From the NCBI GenBank assembly GCA_025330725.1, contig JAIWND010000026.1:337092-401091 (forward strand): 64,000 bases of DNA. Direction: 5' to 3'. Below are positions 48,937 through 58,379 of this stretch, one piece after another. Below the pieces are notes generated by a model that searched no databases, was not told the DNA's origin, and saw only the letters and a program-made list of their open reading frames with translations. Source of the stretch: Chlamydoabsidia padenii. Its lineage: Eukaryota; Mucoromycota; Mucoromycetes; Mucorales; Cunninghamellaceae. The position numbers were made by a program, and so were the translations under genes. Every line of letters begins with the position of its first letter. The first letter of the stretch is position 1.

Positions 48937-51900
48937 ATGACTTCCTTAATATCATCTTTGAATACTATATCCAATGAAGCTTTGTTACCCACGGTCAATG
49001 GCTCTTCACCCAACACTTTGTCCTCCTCCCATGTCGACATGGTTATACGTGTCCTCTCTTCTTGGGTGAATACGCGACTCGGCAAACAGTCTATCGAACA
49101 CTTTGATACGGACTTTAGGGATGGTAAATGTCTCAACAACTTGATGTCTCGACTACAACAAGATCAAATACAGACGACGACTCATATCGAAAACAATGGC
49201 AGCACACACCAGGATCACCTGTCCGACGTTGCACGAATCATTGATGCTCTTATGGAAAACGACAACACTACAAACACCAATCGCCAACAATTATCAACTA
49301 TTGACGAACTGGAATACTCTATTCGAACAGGTCATGTGGGCGTTACCTTGGAACTTGTATCATGCATTATACTCAGGTTATCAATGAAATATATACTTGT
49401 GGATCAACATGTTGCAACTTGGATTAAAAAGGTATGTAGTGAAAAAAAAAAAAAAAAAAAAATAGGGATATGTTTATTTGTTAGATGGAAATAACTTGTG
49501 GAAAAGAGGAGTGCACTTGTGCGGCGAATAGGGGACGAGGAGTCGACAGTGGGGCAAAAAGAGGAGATCAATTACAAGACCAGGTCATCACTAACCTCAT
49601 TTTAATCTTATATACAAATATGCAATATAATAGTCCTACCCTTATGCTTTACAAACACCGGTATCAACATTGCCAACATTCCAAATTGGCGACCTGACCT
49701 TCCACCACACATATTTGAAGGTACGATCTACACTGTTGGCATGGGTTAACTGGCAATTCAAGAATGGATTTGGTGACCTTGAATTTGATCCTATTCTCGA
49801 CTTTGGTCCATCTTGGAAAAATGGCTTGGCATTTACTCTATTGGTTCATTGTCAAAATAATGCATATCTTCCTGGCGATGTGCGACAATGGGTGCATCAA
49901 ATAACACAACTCGGGAATAATCACAATATGTGGACTTTTATCGATGACCGCAGCAATGCTCGTACACTCCTCTCTTTGGTCTTTGATATTGCCTGTCGCC
50001 AAATGGATATACCCACTTACTTTGTCCCTCAAGATCTACTGGATTTGGATACTGTAAACGAATGGTGTGTTATTATTTATGTTTATGGATTCTATCAATA
50101 TGCCTTGTCGTCACAGTCGCAACATCAGCAGCAACTAACGACAGCACAATCTAATCTACAACAAGCCCTGTTATCGGTGCAATCGATTTCTCATACAATA
50201 AATGACGATGGTATTATGGAGCCACTTCACCCACTTGACAACATTGATGACAACACAATCGACCTCTACTCTCAAACTGTATCAAGGGCAAGATCACTAT
50301 GGGAAAACTGTTTATCAGAAAACAAGGACTCAGCACAAGATACTCATCAGCAATTGGAGAAATCTATGGATGCTATGAACCAGGCGTATGATCTCTTCAA
50401 CCTCGGTGTATCGTTTTCCACAATCAGTCAAGCCATACAGACCGAACTACAGGTGGTGGAAACTATGATGAACAATACTGATGCGACAATGACAACCGAC
50501 TCTATACAGCAACTTGAATCGCGAATGTCTATGGTGCAGTCATCACTCTCTGGTATGGAAGAAGAATTTGGCATATTGTTGAAACAAGATCGATACAGCA
50601 ATCATCTCAATCAAGTGCATGAACGGTACAAACTGGTCTGTGCATGGGTGGATCAAGTACGGATATGGATGATTGAAGCTGATCGTATTCGCGGACGTAT
50701 TGGCTATTGGATTGATCTGATTCGGGAAAGAAATAGTCTTGTTGACGACCTTCAACTCAACGCCTTGGCAGTGGTGGATTTAGTGGCTTTGGACAATCTT
50801 GATGTGATGGCGCTCTACAACGAACATGAACAACTGAAAAGGGAAGTGGATCGGTTTGAAGCGGACGACATGAAACGACTTCGAGCTCACGTCAAACAGC
50901 GAACAACAGACCAGGATTTACAAAAGGATGACTTAACACCAGCAGACACATCCACCATCGAAATCACCTTGATTACTCTCAACATGCTTCATCTTCTTCT
51001 TCAACTCATGACCGATCGGGGATTTTGGATCGATTGTTTGGTGCATCGGCTCAAGTGGGAACATCTGTTTGCAAAGGCGGTGGAATGGGTATTTGCCAAG
51101 GACAACGAACTTGATGAATTCTTCCGGGATCAGGCTTTATGGTGTGAACAAAACGACGATGGATTCGACTCATCAATAACAACTGGAATGGTGCAGGCGA
51201 CTGGATCATCAACAACAGCAGCAGCAACCAGTGGCAAAGAAACAGCTGAAGAGATCATTGGTATCCTCATGCGACTGGAACAAGACATTGCGGCATTTGA
51301 TCGGGAATCATTCACAGATGTTTTGGAAGCTTATCAAGAAATGGAAAGACTTGTGACAGACTCTGGCGATGATACTCTTCCTAACTTCCTGGAACAAAGG
51401 CAAACTGGGTTTGAAGCGGCCTTTGAAGATCTTATGAAGCGGTGTGGTCTTGGTCGAAAAGCTGTGGAACAACACTTGGTTATGATGGATATTACGGCCC
51501 AATTCAAAAACATCAAAAACAATGGTGAACTTTTGCGAAGGCGGCTACTCGCGGGAAATGATGGATTTGGAGATAACGGCATCGATGGGAAAATGGGACT
51601 GATCAATAATGGTGATAATGCTGGTGATGGTCTTGATGGGATCGACGACAATTATAATGGCAATCCTATCGACACTAGTGTACGTAACTTTAAAGAAACA
51701 TCAGCCGACTTCCTCTCCCATGCAAAAACTCGTGTTCCATATCCCGATGTACCGATGATGCTGACGGCAATGGGTGCTCAAGACTCACAAAATATCGGTA
51801 CTACAAACGATGCTATTCGAAGCGCTTTGCATACTTATGGGATGTCTCTTGCTTTGATTGCTGATGGTCTTGATCAACTTTTGGCAGAACGGCAACACAT

Positions 51901-54900
51901 GCACTCTCTTCAACGACGTGTCAAGCATGCTTGTGAACAGCTAGTGCGATTTGCGGACTGGATGACTGACAAACGGCGTATGATCGACAAGTCCGATTTT
52001 GATCTTTACGACAATGACAATGATCAAGATGAATTTGCTGCTTTTACCTTTCGGTTTGTACAAGACAAGGACGAACAGCTGGTGCGTTTGGAAAAGGAGC
52101 GTGATGGTATTGCTTCTCGAACACAACAAATGGAATGCGATGAACTGGCCAAACTTCTTGATGCGGTGAATGTGCTGGAATCGGATATTGATGCTGCCAA
52201 TGCTGTTTTTGTGGATCGTCATTCTCTGGTGAATGCCCTGCAAAGTCTGGAAGATGCACGCAATGATCTCAACTCTACTCTCCTGGATCGGGCTCATAAA
52301 TTGGATGTCTTGAAGAAGCATTTGGAATGGAAGACACAATGGATCAAGTCACATCAATGGATATTATCAACAACGCGCAAGCTATGGGACTTTTGTGTAA
52401 AGAAGGCCAGATTTGATCCTGCCGCCGACAATGTGGACAACTCTTCTGCTCCTGATCAACGTAATCTCACCATGGCTCTTCATTCTCATCAAGATCGAAT
52501 CTCTGACGCTGGTGAACGCCAAATGACTGTATTGTTGGAATCATATCAAAGTATGATGGATGGTATGAATGAATGGGCTAAAACATCGGATACAACAAAT
52601 AGTATACATGAAGCTCGTCACAACAACGTTGACCCACTTGCTCACACCAACCAATTAGTATATGACTTCACCAACAAGCAATCCATAGTGGTACAAGAAT
52701 ACCGTGCTCTGATTCAACTCTCTCAATATGCTTCGAAACTTGTCGCCCAAAGGTCTTCGGTGGTGGATATTCTGGTACACATACATGATGCCTCTCGTGA
52801 AGGTGAACGATTACGGGACAACTTGACAAAATCAACACGGCGAATGATGGAGCACGAACCTGGGCAGCATCGTAGCAATAGTCAATCAACACAACAAACA
52901 CTACAACAGCAACAGCAACAATCCATCCAAGAAAGAGTGGAACAATTCCAGCAACTCATTGTCAAGATCAAAAAGAACGTGGACTCTACTGGCTACCATA
53001 TATTCTCGGCAAGGATTGGTGATACTGGATTTAGCTCTATCTTCTCCTCGACACAAACTCAACAATCACATCAATCGGATATCAAAAACTTGCTCTTGAA
53101 CAAGATGAATCAGCTTCTCAAATTGGAATCACTCTTGGTCAATCTCTTGGCGTCATATAATAATGCGGAAAAGAAGAAACAGCTTGTGCTACGATATAGT
53201 GCGGATGCGTTGGAACTCGATCACTGGATTCAAGAACAGATAGCGACATTGAAAAATAGACATCTGGATGTGGCAGCTGAAAGCTTGGATGTACTTTTGG
53301 ATGGCAAATCATGGGATGATCTGGGCCGACAACATCAGCAATTTGTATTAATGGTGGAATCTTTTGAAACCGATCGGTTGAGGCAATTACACGACAAGGT
53401 GGCTGTATTTATGGATGACACTCTTGCGACGAAAAATCATGCTTCCCCTGATCAACCTGAACACCTCCGACAGCAGCATCATCGGCGATCAGTGGATATG
53501 ACATTATCGGTGACTCAGAATCTTGCGGTGACGATCACGAACTTTGCGGCTCTAAAACAGGAAATCATTGACGAAGCTGTTACTATGGATGCTGTCAGGA
53601 AAAGAATTGAATGGTCAAGTGTCCTCGAGAAGACTCTCTCTCAATTGGAACTGATTCAAACAAGACTCTCTGATTGGTGCAAAAAGAAAGATCAGTGGAT
53701 ATACTCGGACGGATTCTTTGGTGATGGTGATGATGGCGATGTGGATCATGGACCGATGCTGTTGGCTCTTTATCAAGATTTGGAACAATTGACGTTGGAC
53801 AAGGATGAATTTACCAGGACAACATTACCCGTGGTGCATGAATTGTACGACACGTTTGTGCAAAGCTTTGCAAACCTTCCACGACCTGCTGCTACTCCTG
53901 ACCATATTGAAAATGCAATGGCTTCGCTGGATCGATCAAGTAATAGGTGCCATGAAGCTCTTGTTTCAAGGAACAAGGAACTGGATGTTATTCAAGGTTG
54001 TATACAATGGGAAACGGACTGGAAGGGAGTCTCTCAGGTCATCAAGGATTGTCAAATGGATCTCGAACACTTTGTGGTCAACTCGGCTCGATGGAAACCG
54101 TTGGTGCATGATCAAGATATGATCACTCTCTCAAAGAACTCACAATCAATACACCAACAATGGGCTTTCTTGGATCAAAAGCTTCAAGACCTCACAAATC
54201 GATTCACCAAGTTACAAGGCGACGTCTCTACCAATAACGTCGGCAACGTTATTACCAAATCTATGTCAAACAAATTGGATCAGGTGGACTGTCATTTTCG
54301 CCATGTCATTGAACTGAATCACTTTATGGATCTGGTCATTAAGCAAAATGGAATGGTGCAAGATTTACTCTGTCGGATAAATCATATTGGTGGAGATCTA
54401 AAACAGGTGCTAGAAGGATACAAAGCAGGACAACATAATACGCATGAAACTTACAACAGCTCAACAGATTATGGTAAACCATCGCATATTAGTATCCAGC
54501 ACAATCAATTCACCAAGGATGTTGGCCAACTTCGCTCTGATGCTTCTGGTATGATCTATCCTGTACGACCTGCATGGAATCGACTCGATGGTGGTACTCC
54601 AACTGATAATGATGATCTGATCGCTTTGGACAATGCTGCAAATAAAAAGATCCGTGACACCCTTACCGATGGTATTAGTCGACTAGATCAAAATGTGCTT
54701 GAACTTGGACGGATCATCCTGGTGAATGAGAAAAGGTCTCGATGTTATGCAACTTTACAGGCATTCAAGAAACAACTCGAATTTGGTGGTGACTTTATCA
54801 AGGAACAAAGGACAAAGCTACAGCAGGCAACAACAACTCTGGAAACAGATCTACTCAATACGGTAAGGAACATGAAAAAAAAAAAAAAAAAAAAAAAAGC

Positions 54901-57900
54901 TTGAAACTTACAATCTTTTATTGCTCCTTTTAAAAAGTATACTGCCACTAGTCCTCTTCTATCACTCGATTGCTACTTGTCAATATTGGACCGGACACTC
55001 TCTTCAGCAAATGAAATCGATCGATGTTTGAAATTAAACAATTATGTTCTTGTCGGGATTCAAGATCTGCATGAACAATACTTGGGCTTGCCACATGATG
55101 AACTTGACACAAAGGTACAAGACGAATTCCGTGGTCTGCACTTGTTACACAATAAAACGGTGGACGATTGGCAGGAACTTCGATCAAAGACGACTGGTAC
55201 AACCTCACGTATAGAAACTGAAATTTTACCGTCTTTATTGACGCATGGATTAAAGCAATTGAACCAAGAGCTGGAGTCTGTCGATACGGAACTTCGGTCT
55301 CAGCACTATTCGATTATATCTGAAGACCAATTGGCGGAACGGATCAAGAAAACCAGGGCACTTCGGCAGAACTTTAATCTCCTCCGTACTGGTATTTGTG
55401 GTGGGTATACAACTCTGTCTGTGGCTCGGTTGGATGATGCAAACAATAATATTGGTCGACTGGAAGATCTCTTGAAGGCTACCGAAAACAGGATGGCTCA
55501 ATGGCGGCAAATAGAACAGCGACAATGTCAAATTAACGTGTTTGTGGATAAGGCTACGACAGTTATACAATCACAACTGGAAATCAAGTCTAGTATTGAT
55601 GCTTTGGATTTCACCGACCGGATGATCGACTCAACATGTATTATGCAGCAACACAAGCAAAGTTCTCGGCAGGTTATGGAGGGTATCCAGGAACTCGAAA
55701 ACTTGTACGAAGATCTACACAACTCTACTCAACTGACAGGCAATGATGAATTCCAGGCGGCTCGACACCAATTGCAAAAGGATCAAATTGAAGAAACGTG
55801 GACCAAGCTTCAAGATACAAATGCTTTGTTGGCTCAGCGCATGAATTTGATGAATAGATGGCTGGAACTTTATGGTGACTTGAAGGAGGTGCGACAAACG
55901 GTGATTGGATGTAAAACTACTTTGGAAACGCTATTACTTGGTATCAAAAACCAATCTAGTAATCATTATGGAAATGGTGCTGCCAAAAACCAAAGTGTTC
56001 TTCTAGACAAGGTGGATCAACAGATGCATATGGTAACACCGAAGCTTAAAAATGGACCTGAAACCCTGGATCAAGCTTTACTGGATGACAAATATCACTA
56101 TGGATTGCTTTCAGATTATTATCAAGAAACACTGGGGCTATCAAATGTGGTGGAAAAGCTATTACAAGAATACAAATTTATTACTGATGTGGCCCGATTG
56201 ACTCAGCGCTATCAAGACGCTATCGAACAACGACAGAATATATGTATCAAGCAAAAATTGGCACTGGAACACTATGATCAGCAATATGAACAACTGAACT
56301 TGCAATATAGGGCCGATGGATATCCAGAATCAAAGTGCATCAACATACCCGACATGCTAAAGTCTCATTTTTACGCCCTGGATTATACTAAAGGTGTTGT
56401 CTCTGATAGCAAGAACGACATACAATTGGATACAGGTGATATTAATGGACTTTACGAACAACTGACTGCCACTTTCAATCAACCTCGTGGAAAAATGGAT
56501 CAATTGCGACAACCTTTACTATCTCTTCTGGACAACTTGACTAATACCATCACTCGTCAAGAACTTTGGCACCAGTTTATTGGATCAGTGGAAACATACG
56601 ACAGCAATGCAACAGAACTTCTTGGTACGATAATGCAACTTCAAACACGCCTAGCTTCTCTGGTTGATGTGGATAACGATATTTACACCGAACTTACTCA
56701 ACAACATTCGAATTTGAAGGAAAACATGGATCTTTTTATGCCGTTTGACTCGAAAATGGTACTCACTGATGGGGGTGATCTTCTTCAAAAAAGCTGCTTA
56801 GACTGGCTTCGTTTACGAAACCGCGATGTGCTACAAACTTGGGCCAAATGTTGCGACACACTCGCTATCCACCAACAGAAGCTACTCGACGATCAACAAA
56901 CACAACAGGAAAACAGTAAATTGGAGGATCTTATCAAGCGCATCGATGATATGAAAAAGCGGGTGGACACTTTACATCTCTCAGGTTGCCAAAACATTGA
57001 ATCTGAACATCAAGAACTGGACGATATTGAAAAGGAATTCCTCGACTCACTTTGCCCTTGTATTGACATTATGCTCGATAATCAAGAACAACGATCACTT
57101 CATTGTAATGACAATTGCGACGGAGACGATACTATCCAACAATTGTATGCCTCATTGAATCAATCCAAGGAGAATCTCAAGCAATGTATCAGGCGTAAAA
57201 AGGTGGATGCATCTCAACAAGACAAGACTCTGCAACTGGTGAATGATATCAATGAACTGGAAAGGCTGATTGATCTTGTAGACGAATCAGTCGCCGCGGC
57301 TGCACCCCATCATTCTAGGATTGTCAATGGTTCTTTTGTTAAATTGGACTTGCAAGACCTTCTCAATAATCTTATCAAGACTTACAAGGTGCACTCACTG
57401 ACGGTGGGCTCCTCCTTAGAAAATCTACAAGGCACATGTGAAAAGGTCTCTACTTCAACATCTGTATTGGATTTATTGGAAACAGCAAAACGACGCTGGA
57501 CAAAAACCAAGGAAGCGGCAGCAGCTAGGGAACGCGAACTACAAATGTGCATCGAACAACTACAGAACGACTTTTTCACCAAGCTCGCAATCATCGGCAA
57601 AACACAGCAGCAACAGAAACGGCACTCGACATTATCTATGGAACTATCATCACCATCTTCGTCAACTTTCTCATACAAGGTTGATAGAGAAAACAGCTTG
57701 GACGTGCAAATCGGTCAATTACTGAAAAGCCAACCATATCGGACCAAGGTTAAAATGGTGCCTGGTCAAGTGGGCAAGTACTGGATTGGTGACAAAAATC
57801 CTCGCCTTGTGTATTGCCGCATCTTAAAAAGCAAGATGGTCATGGTCCGCGTTGGTGGAGGTAAGGGAGGAAAAAATGCATGATCCATCCTCTAACTCAT

Positions 57901-58379
57901 TTTGATTTTTTACAATAGGCTGGGTCGAATTATCTCAATTCTTGTTAGGTAAAAAGATAAAGATAAAGAAAGTGAGCAGGAAAACTAAATTACCGTTTTT
58001 GGCTCTATGATTAGATCACGGCTGTAATGAAGGGACCATCATACCTGGTGGACAACAAAACGACACCTCAAGGTTTAAAGAAGCATTCATGCGTGTATCA
58101 AGTCGTAGCTTATCGCCTTCTAATCGTGTTACACTTCGTGGTGGCGGTGGAATCAAGCATGGTGGTATTAAAGGTAGTGACAGCATTGGTAGTCTCAGTC
58201 CTTCAAGGTCATCCAGTAAAACCTCAACAAGCACAAGATGTCGATCACCTTTGGCAGGATATACCGACGGGGAAAGATATGTCCGTGTGGATGAATCAGG
58301 CAACCACTTTGCATTAAAAATGACCCGTGTGGATGATGATTACTTTATCCCATATCAAAATACCAACAAATCCAACTAA
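48937..58379 (+). CDS. Giant spectraplakin-like protein: tandem CH, spectrin-like coiled coil, GAS2/GAR domain (about 3046 aa)
   Basis: Exons 48937-49431, 49485-49583, 49634-54862, 54938-57860, 57920-57949, 58015-58379. CH1 is at about 33-160 (VIRVLSSWVNTRL, DFRDGKCLNNLM, LELVSCIILRLS). CH2 is at about 213-345 (RSTLLAWVNWQF, FGPSWKNGLAFTLLVH). Together they form an actinin/plectin-type actin-binding region. About 2,450 residues of helical, Trp-punctuated, spectrin-repeat-like sequence follow. Residues about 2858-2925 are a GAS2-related (GAR) microtubule-binding domain: VKMVPGQVGKYWIGD, LVYCRILKSKMVMVRVGGGW, VELSQFLLDH. A basic Ser/Gly-rich tail follows, as in GAS2 proteins. The likely role is to crosslink actin and microtubules. 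The short second exon is doubtful: its donor would be GTCATC; a single 49432-49633 intron also keeps frame. The 54863-54937 intron ends in AAAAAG. Confidence 0.9.

Follow-up and report, generated by a model that had tools for sequence, protein, structure and literature searches.

A giant CH-rod-GAR protein of Chlamydoabsidia padenii, a probable member of an old fungal family of actin-microtubule linkers

Do fungi possess giant proteins that could link actin filaments to microtubules? Such large linkers have mostly been studied in animals, and the question is raised here by a gene found in a 64,000-nucleotide stretch of DNA (hereafter the window), which forms the end of the 401,091-bp contig C19 in the 34.2-Mb genome of Chlamydoabsidia padenii (Mucorales, Cunninghamellaceae). 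Its product joins a pair of CH domains, through a long rod, to a GAR (GAS2) domain in which most microtubule contacts are conserved; it has a family of paralogues, and its actin-binding domain (ABD), made of the CH pair, has changed faster than the rod. With a probability of about 0.78, we consider that the gene belongs to an old fungal family of giant proteins linking actin and microtubules.

When the open frames of the window were scanned separately, Pfam recognized CH1 (E 4.6e-7, 30.4 bits, cut-off 26), CH2 slightly below the same cut-off (1.9e-5, 25.2 bits) and GAS2 (1e-7, 32.1 bits, cut-off 21.3). An earlier note on this DNA had proposed one gene with a CH pair and a GAR domain, and this was borne out: both parts occur within one protein in the public model P0001 (hypothetical protein BC941DRAFT_128836 of C. 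padenii, 3,013 amino acids) and in many predicted relatives, and on P0001 the GAS2 match is significant (8.1e-13) while CH reaches 3.6e-12 over two stretches. Comparison with solved structures using phmmer matched CH2 to alpha-actinin-like protein 1 (5bvr, 2.8e-7). The GAR frame alone gave a weak match in the PDB (0.03), and a profile of nine GAR sequences of the family recovered GAS2 (1v5r, 6.9e-10) and MACF1 (5x57, 2.4e-9). CH2 and the GAR are separated by a helical rod and linker, together about 2,490 residues long; in the predicted structure of P0126, the stretch preceding the GAR is of low confidence (pLDDT < 50 at 754-770 and 772-824). The linker that follows the GAR is basic and rich in Ser, Gly and Thr, with 12 K+R versus 4 D+E in 77 residues. 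With regard to an SxIP (EB1-binding) motif, the tail of the window protein holds TIIP, and Pfam reported no family at the C-terminal block of P0001.

The exon structure differs from that of the earlier note, which had read six exons encoding 3,046 amino acids over 48937-58379 without internal stop. Its exon 2 (49485-49583) is skipped in P0001, has a counterpart in none of the ten aligned relatives and carries an odd donor (GTCATC); the linker between CH1 and CH2 is variable, and some of the aligned relatives hold other residues at this site. The five-exon translation of the window is letter-for-letter identical to P0001, every intron being GT...AG, and on these comparisons we take five exons as the right structure. 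Between the two long frames lies an intron of 75 bp (54863-54937) containing a poly-A tract, which might suggest that the CH-rod and rod-GAR parts are two adjacent genes wrongly fused by gene prediction. We consider this very improbable, as a single protein is predicted in relatives from many species and as four archive proteins (P0017, P0023, P0025 and P0030), apparently unspliced frames beginning with an internal Met, extend from CH2 through the whole GAR tail, as would fit one exon. Within the GAR itself, the intron after VGGG (57860/57919) seems recurrent in the C. padenii paralogues; GAS2 matches end at model position 53 in seven of the ten places found in this genome.

The GAR was then considered at the residue level. 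The passages of PMC12084551 on the structure of the GAS2 GAR on microtubules name K237, R242, R252, G254-256, W257, K266 and H267, describe a zinc-binding fold and give, for K266E, a change in Kd from about 0.69 to about 10.6 uM. A residue pattern, into which R242 and R252 were built and GGG nearly so, matched 130 of 131 family proteins (P0035 escaped; another pattern scan missed P0027, P0033 and P0035). K or R occupies the 237 position in all 130 matched proteins, W the 257 position in 129 (the exception is probably P0121, which seemingly reads into an intron) and H the 267 position in 122. At the K266 position, 106 of the 130 proteins have D, 9 have E and none has a basic residue. The fungal GAR retains most of the microtubule-contact residues of GAS2. 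A Cys-x-Cys upstream of beta3, which we take to be part of the zinc site, was found in none of the 130 matched proteins, 108 of which have no Cys in either examined stretch. Together, the missing CxC and the acidic K266 position predict that the GAR is zinc-free and that the charge is reversed at one of its contacts.

A query with the GAR region retrieved 282 proteins at E 0.001 among 1,184 candidates (lengths of about 1,675-5,330 amino acids). Among the 120 of these 282 matches that were listed, those bearing an organism name all come, to our knowledge, from Mucorales or Umbelopsis, and PF00307 occurs together with PF02187 in many; the absence of other fungal phyla from this part of the matches is no evidence. 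Conservation in early-diverging fungi, which the earlier note had raised as a condition, was borne out for these two groups, with CH and GAR together in many proteins. Combined with a search for mid-length GAR proteins using the window exon (11 hits from 29 candidates, one being a smut protein), this listing gave a set of 131 family proteins. By phmmer, an ABD of the P0063 type was detected in 76 of the 131, and the P0063 rod block in 113, including a 640-amino-acid Sporisorium protein (P0131, 2.9e-11); the proteins without a match include fragments. Smut GAR proteins such as P0131 share the homologous rod block and the GAR with the window protein, but are short, with no CH pair found and no C-terminal block. 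When P0131 was used as query, the 7,991 candidates sharing most words were scored; among the 120 of 132 hits that were listed, most without organism name, 25 have the rod block and none the ABD. A profile of the C-terminal block, built from 117 of the 131 family proteins, matched 124 of the 131 and none of these 120. Smut fungi thus have a shorter, CH-less form of the GAR protein. Some public names of the giants are misleading: P0008, P0010 and P0103 are called 'Spectrin beta chain, non-erythrocytic 1', and P0102 'Glutamine synthetase'.

In the C. padenii genome, GAS2 was found at ten places: C19 (the window), C1, C11, C34, C67, C36, C14, C23 and twice on C12. The two C12 places lie in inverted orientation and share 99.8% identity over 5.85 kb, which leaves nine different GAR loci; this inverted pair is either a recent duplication or an assembly effect. 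CH above cut-off adjoins the GAR at C19, C1, C11, C34 and C67, giving at least five CH-bearing GAR loci. The C11 locus (L013, C11:309000-317000) has a CH1 90.6% identical to that of P0063, leaves residues ~793-2211 of the rod unmatched and keeps the GAR; judged by this alignment, it looks like a shortened copy of C1/P0063 lacking the middle of the rod. The C14 and C23 paralogues (L009-L012) have open frames of 2,236 and 1,932 amino acids with the C-terminal block, and neither rod block nor ABD was detected in the stretches fetched. The C12 copies (L018/L019; C12:1879236-1879307 on the minus strand and C12:1888831-1888902 on the plus strand) consist of a 288-amino-acid frame with a divergent GAR; by eye, a 648/682-amino-acid rod-like frame and a pyruvate-carboxylase-like frame lie near.

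A tree of rod block plus GAR was built from 140 proteins and rooted on the smut-type proteins. It contains three Mucoromycotina groups, in which a strict ABD profile matched 52 of 57, 9 of 14 and 4 of 41 proteins; six further proteins outside these groups gave no strict match. The tree has weak spots: the 22 outgroup proteins are not monophyletic (P0154 does not group with the remaining 21), several inner nodes are poorly supported and the node joining the two CH-rich groups has a support of 0.67. In the CH-poor group, Pfam CH was also marked in P0086, P0088, P0091 and P0118, and the ABDs of P0055 and P0066 score 8.1e-6 and 2.5e-7. This scattered occurrence suggests repeated loss of CH rather than late gain.

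The nature of the rod was less straightforward. The earlier note had called it spectrin-like; Pfam Spectrin gave no match on the rod even at E <= 10, whereas structure prediction gives a spectrin-repeat fold for a piece of 601 residues. In the whole genome, the same Pfam model found only two sub-threshold matches, both at alpha-actinin-like loci. With the predicted models, Foldseek returned nothing at E <= 0.001, and VIA-align was used as a second look, with a caveat for helical models. The best structure matches were repeats of spectrin, plakin and actinin, those of the plectin plakin domain standing alongside other spectrin repeats. On this predicted fragment fold, we assign the rod to spectrin-type repeats. 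With a repeat size which we take to be ~106 residues, ~2,490 residues could accommodate about 23 repeats, with an estimated span on the order of 100 nm.

Three points weigh against the window gene as such a linker. First, the rod models also match Kar9, myosin and designed helical proteins in VIA-align; yeast Kar9 (7ag9) is smaller than the window protein, the shared helical fold shows no kinship, and we know of no CH or GAR in Kar9. Second, the rod profile also matched dynactin in the PDB, and sequence alone was therefore not accepted as proof of spectrin repeats. Third, the window gene is a poor example of an actin-binding linker, its CH pair scoring far below that of its paralogue P0063 (CH 8.2e-33). 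P0001 and its Absidia repens relative P0002 are 58% identical over the whole protein, 52% in the ABD, 72% in the rod block and 90% in the GAR. Their ABD is less conserved than the rod block and the whole protein, the reverse of both control pairs, P0063 versus P0050 (whole 58%, ABD 78%, rod block 69%, GAR 84%) and P0008 versus P0010 (75%, 87%, 85% for the rod and 96%). In the ABD tree, the stem branch of P0001 and P0002 is 2.0, as compared to tips of at most about 0.45 in other giants. This points to an actin end that is decaying or re-purposed.

Has actin binding been lost altogether in the window gene, leaving a microtubule-only rod, so that the term crosslinker would fit its paralogues only? 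The CH scores near the cut-off, the orthologues P0003 and P0004 without precomputed CH, the long ABD stem with its lower identity than the rod block, and the many sibling proteins without ABD all argue for it. Yet SWVN and DFRDG, which we take to be CH hallmarks, are still readable in the window ABD, two stretches of P0001 are still recognized as CH by Pfam, and the family ABD search still matches P0003 and P0004, although a stricter profile matches P0003 only. We give this loss slightly less than even odds. For the window copy, microtubule binding would be the safer half of the linker reading.

The origin of the ABD bears on the age of the whole design. By best score, the P0063 ABD is closest to alpha-actinin (149 bits), followed by beta-spectrin (136), dystrophin (112), plectin (103) and MACF1 (101). 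This ranking favours an independent assembly, in which an ABD of the alpha-actinin type, followed by a small number of spectrin repeats, was lengthened by duplication and joined to a fungal GAR, so that the architecture of animal spectraplakins arose in parallel. The preference for actinin is however slight and variable by summed BLASTP bits (18 members), which give smaller, varying margins: 175-182 for actinins, 170-179 for beta-spectrins and 172 for MACF1 with P0063, and 193-201 for beta-spectrins, 195 for dystrophin and 181-190 for actinins with P0043. A maximum-likelihood ABD tree was built from 225 columns, with one alpha-actinin of C. padenii and nine animal ABDs of solved structure; it was repeated without P0001 and P0002, which were omitted as long branches from the approximately unbiased (AU) test. 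The fungal giants fall into a single clade (100/100), whose stem is long (about 1.2) and arises between the actinins on one side and the ABDs of animal spectrin, dystrophin and plakin on the other. Grouping the giants with MACF1/plectin was rejected by the AU test (p 0.0034; 225 columns, 25 sequences) but not by the Kishino-Hasegawa (0.054) and Shimodaira-Hasegawa (0.097) tests; AU values for the other placements were 0.057 with spectrin, 0.20 with dystrophin and 0.12 with the fungal actinin. A direct tie of the fungal ABD to those of spectraplakins is thus disfavoured by these trees. The rejection of MACF1/plectin but not of the C. padenii actinin, together with a zinc-less GAR unlike those of animals, speaks for independent assembly, whereas the CH-rod-GAR order kept wherever CH is present, with no intermediate seen, and the long branch that weakens the tree speak against it; we consider it possible, at somewhat below even odds.

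Common descent has much the same evidence to account for. Here a CH-spectrin-GAR protein would pre-date the split of fungi and animals, spectrins and dystrophins having lost the GAR, animals having gained plakin, SH3 and EF modules, and fungi having lost or never had those. Rooting on alpha-actinins places the fungal giants as sister to all animal spectrin/dystrophin/plakin ABDs together (89/95), the arrangement to be expected had the animal groups diverged from one another only after the fungal lineage separated. Each of the three Mucoromycotina groups has CH, although weakly in the one that mostly lacks it, and the domain thus seems old and repeatedly lost; smut proteins share the rod block together with the GAR, and the scenario published in PMC9145010 is similar. 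Against this, the actinin rooting is assumed, the stem is long, EF-hand and SH3 were not found, and the sampling is without early-diverging fungi and protist relatives of animals. Constraining the giants with all actinins or with all animal spectrin-type ABDs gave an AU value of 0.78 in each case; both constraints are met by the same unrooted best tree and are indistinguishable without an outgroup, so that the data do not choose. To common descent we give very nearly even odds. The two alternatives of the earlier note, a design predating animals and one that arose in parallel, both stand.

Table 1. Features of the gene, in window coordinates.
Feature	Coordinates	Strand	Evidence
Exon 1: N-terminus and CH1 (CH1 ~49033-49407)	48937..49431	+	Pfam CH 4.6e-7 over 49051-49251; P0001
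Intron 1, holding the unsupported 49485-49583	49432..49633	+	skipped in P0001; 0/10 relatives
Exon 2: CH2 (~49721-50104) and ~first two thirds of rod	49634..54862	+	Pfam CH 1.9e-5; phmmer
Exon 3: last third of rod and most of GAR (start ~57701)	54938..57860	+	Pfam GAS2 922-974 of exon, 9.9e-7
Exon 4 (WVELSQFLL of GAR)	57919..57948	+	reading-frame join; identical in P0001
Exon 5: GAR end, basic Ser/Gly/Thr-rich linker, C-terminal block, stop	58015..58379	+	P0001
GAR domain, split at 57860/57919 and 57948/58015	57701..58019	+	P0001 residues 2830-2894, 8.1e-13, 48.5 bits
Family rod block (...ERFxADDMxRLRxHVK...SPADTSTIEITLTTLN...), well-conserved part of rod	50606..51538	+	phmmer with P0063 block
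Modelled rod fragment: predicted tandem spectrin-like three-helix repeats	50336..52138	+	
Second conserved C-terminal block, GYxDGDxFIxVDExGNQxxVKMTKA	58257..58337	+	family profile

The earlier note had described the architecture as one normally discussed for animal proteins; it is not new to fungi: CH/SR/GAS2 proteins (SR, spectrin repeat) had already been described there by Paradzik et al. 2022 (PMC9145010). In that paper, the dataset comprises three fungal species plus additions, the fungal proteins share CH, spectrin-type repeats, GAS2 and a proposed actin-microtubule link with the window protein, and these forms are regarded as intermediate, the origin of spectraplakins being placed at the opisthokont base. 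Judged by titles and abstract openings, it was the sole on-subject match among the papers listed in our literature search on spectraplakin, GAS2, CH and spectrin repeat in fungi; no paper was found joining spectraplakin with Mucor-type names, a wording that misses PMC9145010 too. Additions to the published descriptions are the paralogue family, the ABD change, the zinc-less GAR, the C-terminal block and the AU test.

The likeness to MACF1 and dystonin put forward in the earlier note holds for the order CH-rod-GAR, but a direct tie to them is not supported. With animal spectraplakins (MACF1/ACF7, dystonin, Shot, VAB-10) the window protein shares the tandem CH, the spectrin-repeat rod, the GAR and a basic Ser/Gly-rich tail. 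In contrast, the fungal CH pair does not group with MACF1/plectin, and the fungal GAR lacks the CxC and has mostly D/E at GAS2 K266. Pfam EF-hand gave no match in P0001 or the other family giants scanned, Pfam SH3/plakin none in P0001, P0063, P0088, P0036, P0008, P0050, P0037 and P0105, and no plectin repeats were found in the window protein. Alpha-actinin and beta-spectrin have the best-scoring ABDs and a spectrin-repeat rod but no GAR, whereas the window protein lacks their EF-hand module. GAS2 and GAS2-like 1-3 combine CH and GAR in one protein, with mostly shared microtubule contacts, but GAS2 has a single CH and no long rod, unlike the two CH stretches and giant rod of the window protein. 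C. padenii has separate alpha-actinin-like loci, C62 and C45. The idea that it is without alpha-actinin, based on clean CH pairs being found only in GAR genes outside the fimbrin-like C56, was dropped, since C62 and C45 carry CH and EFhand_Ca_insen; the latter is above cut-off nowhere else in the genome.

As for the surroundings, the window holds 33 frames of at least 150 amino acids. Ten others were scanned with Pfam, and include RRM, WD40, CNNM, ankyrin-repeat and kinase-like (sub-threshold) frames; no tRNA or Rfam family was found in the window. Nothing suggests a functional cluster.

Taken together, we infer the following filament binding, crosslinking and role in hyphae. The N-terminal CH1-CH2 ABD would hold actin, with the rod as a long flexible spacer, and at the other end the GAR, the basic Ser/Gly linker and the short conserved block would grip the microtubule lattice. 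In hyphae, CH-bearing relatives would in this way couple microtubules to actin filaments or to the actin cortex. In the window paralogue, the hold on actin may be weak or changed, or may have gone, and the protein may act mainly as a long microtubule-binding rod. A wider picture, which we find doubtful, would be that of an expanded Mucoromycotina linker system (nine GAR loci in a 34-Mb genome), whose actin end was repeatedly shed to leave microtubule-only rods, whose GAR is zinc-free with a reversed key charge at the tubulin interface, and whose design predates the fungus/animal split. The coexistence of CH-bearing and CH-less fungal paralogues makes it testable whether the design is pre-animal and what role a linker plays after its actin end is lost. 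Mucorales hyphae are fast-growing, tip-polarised and largely non-septate, and long-range coupling of filaments would matter in such hyphae.
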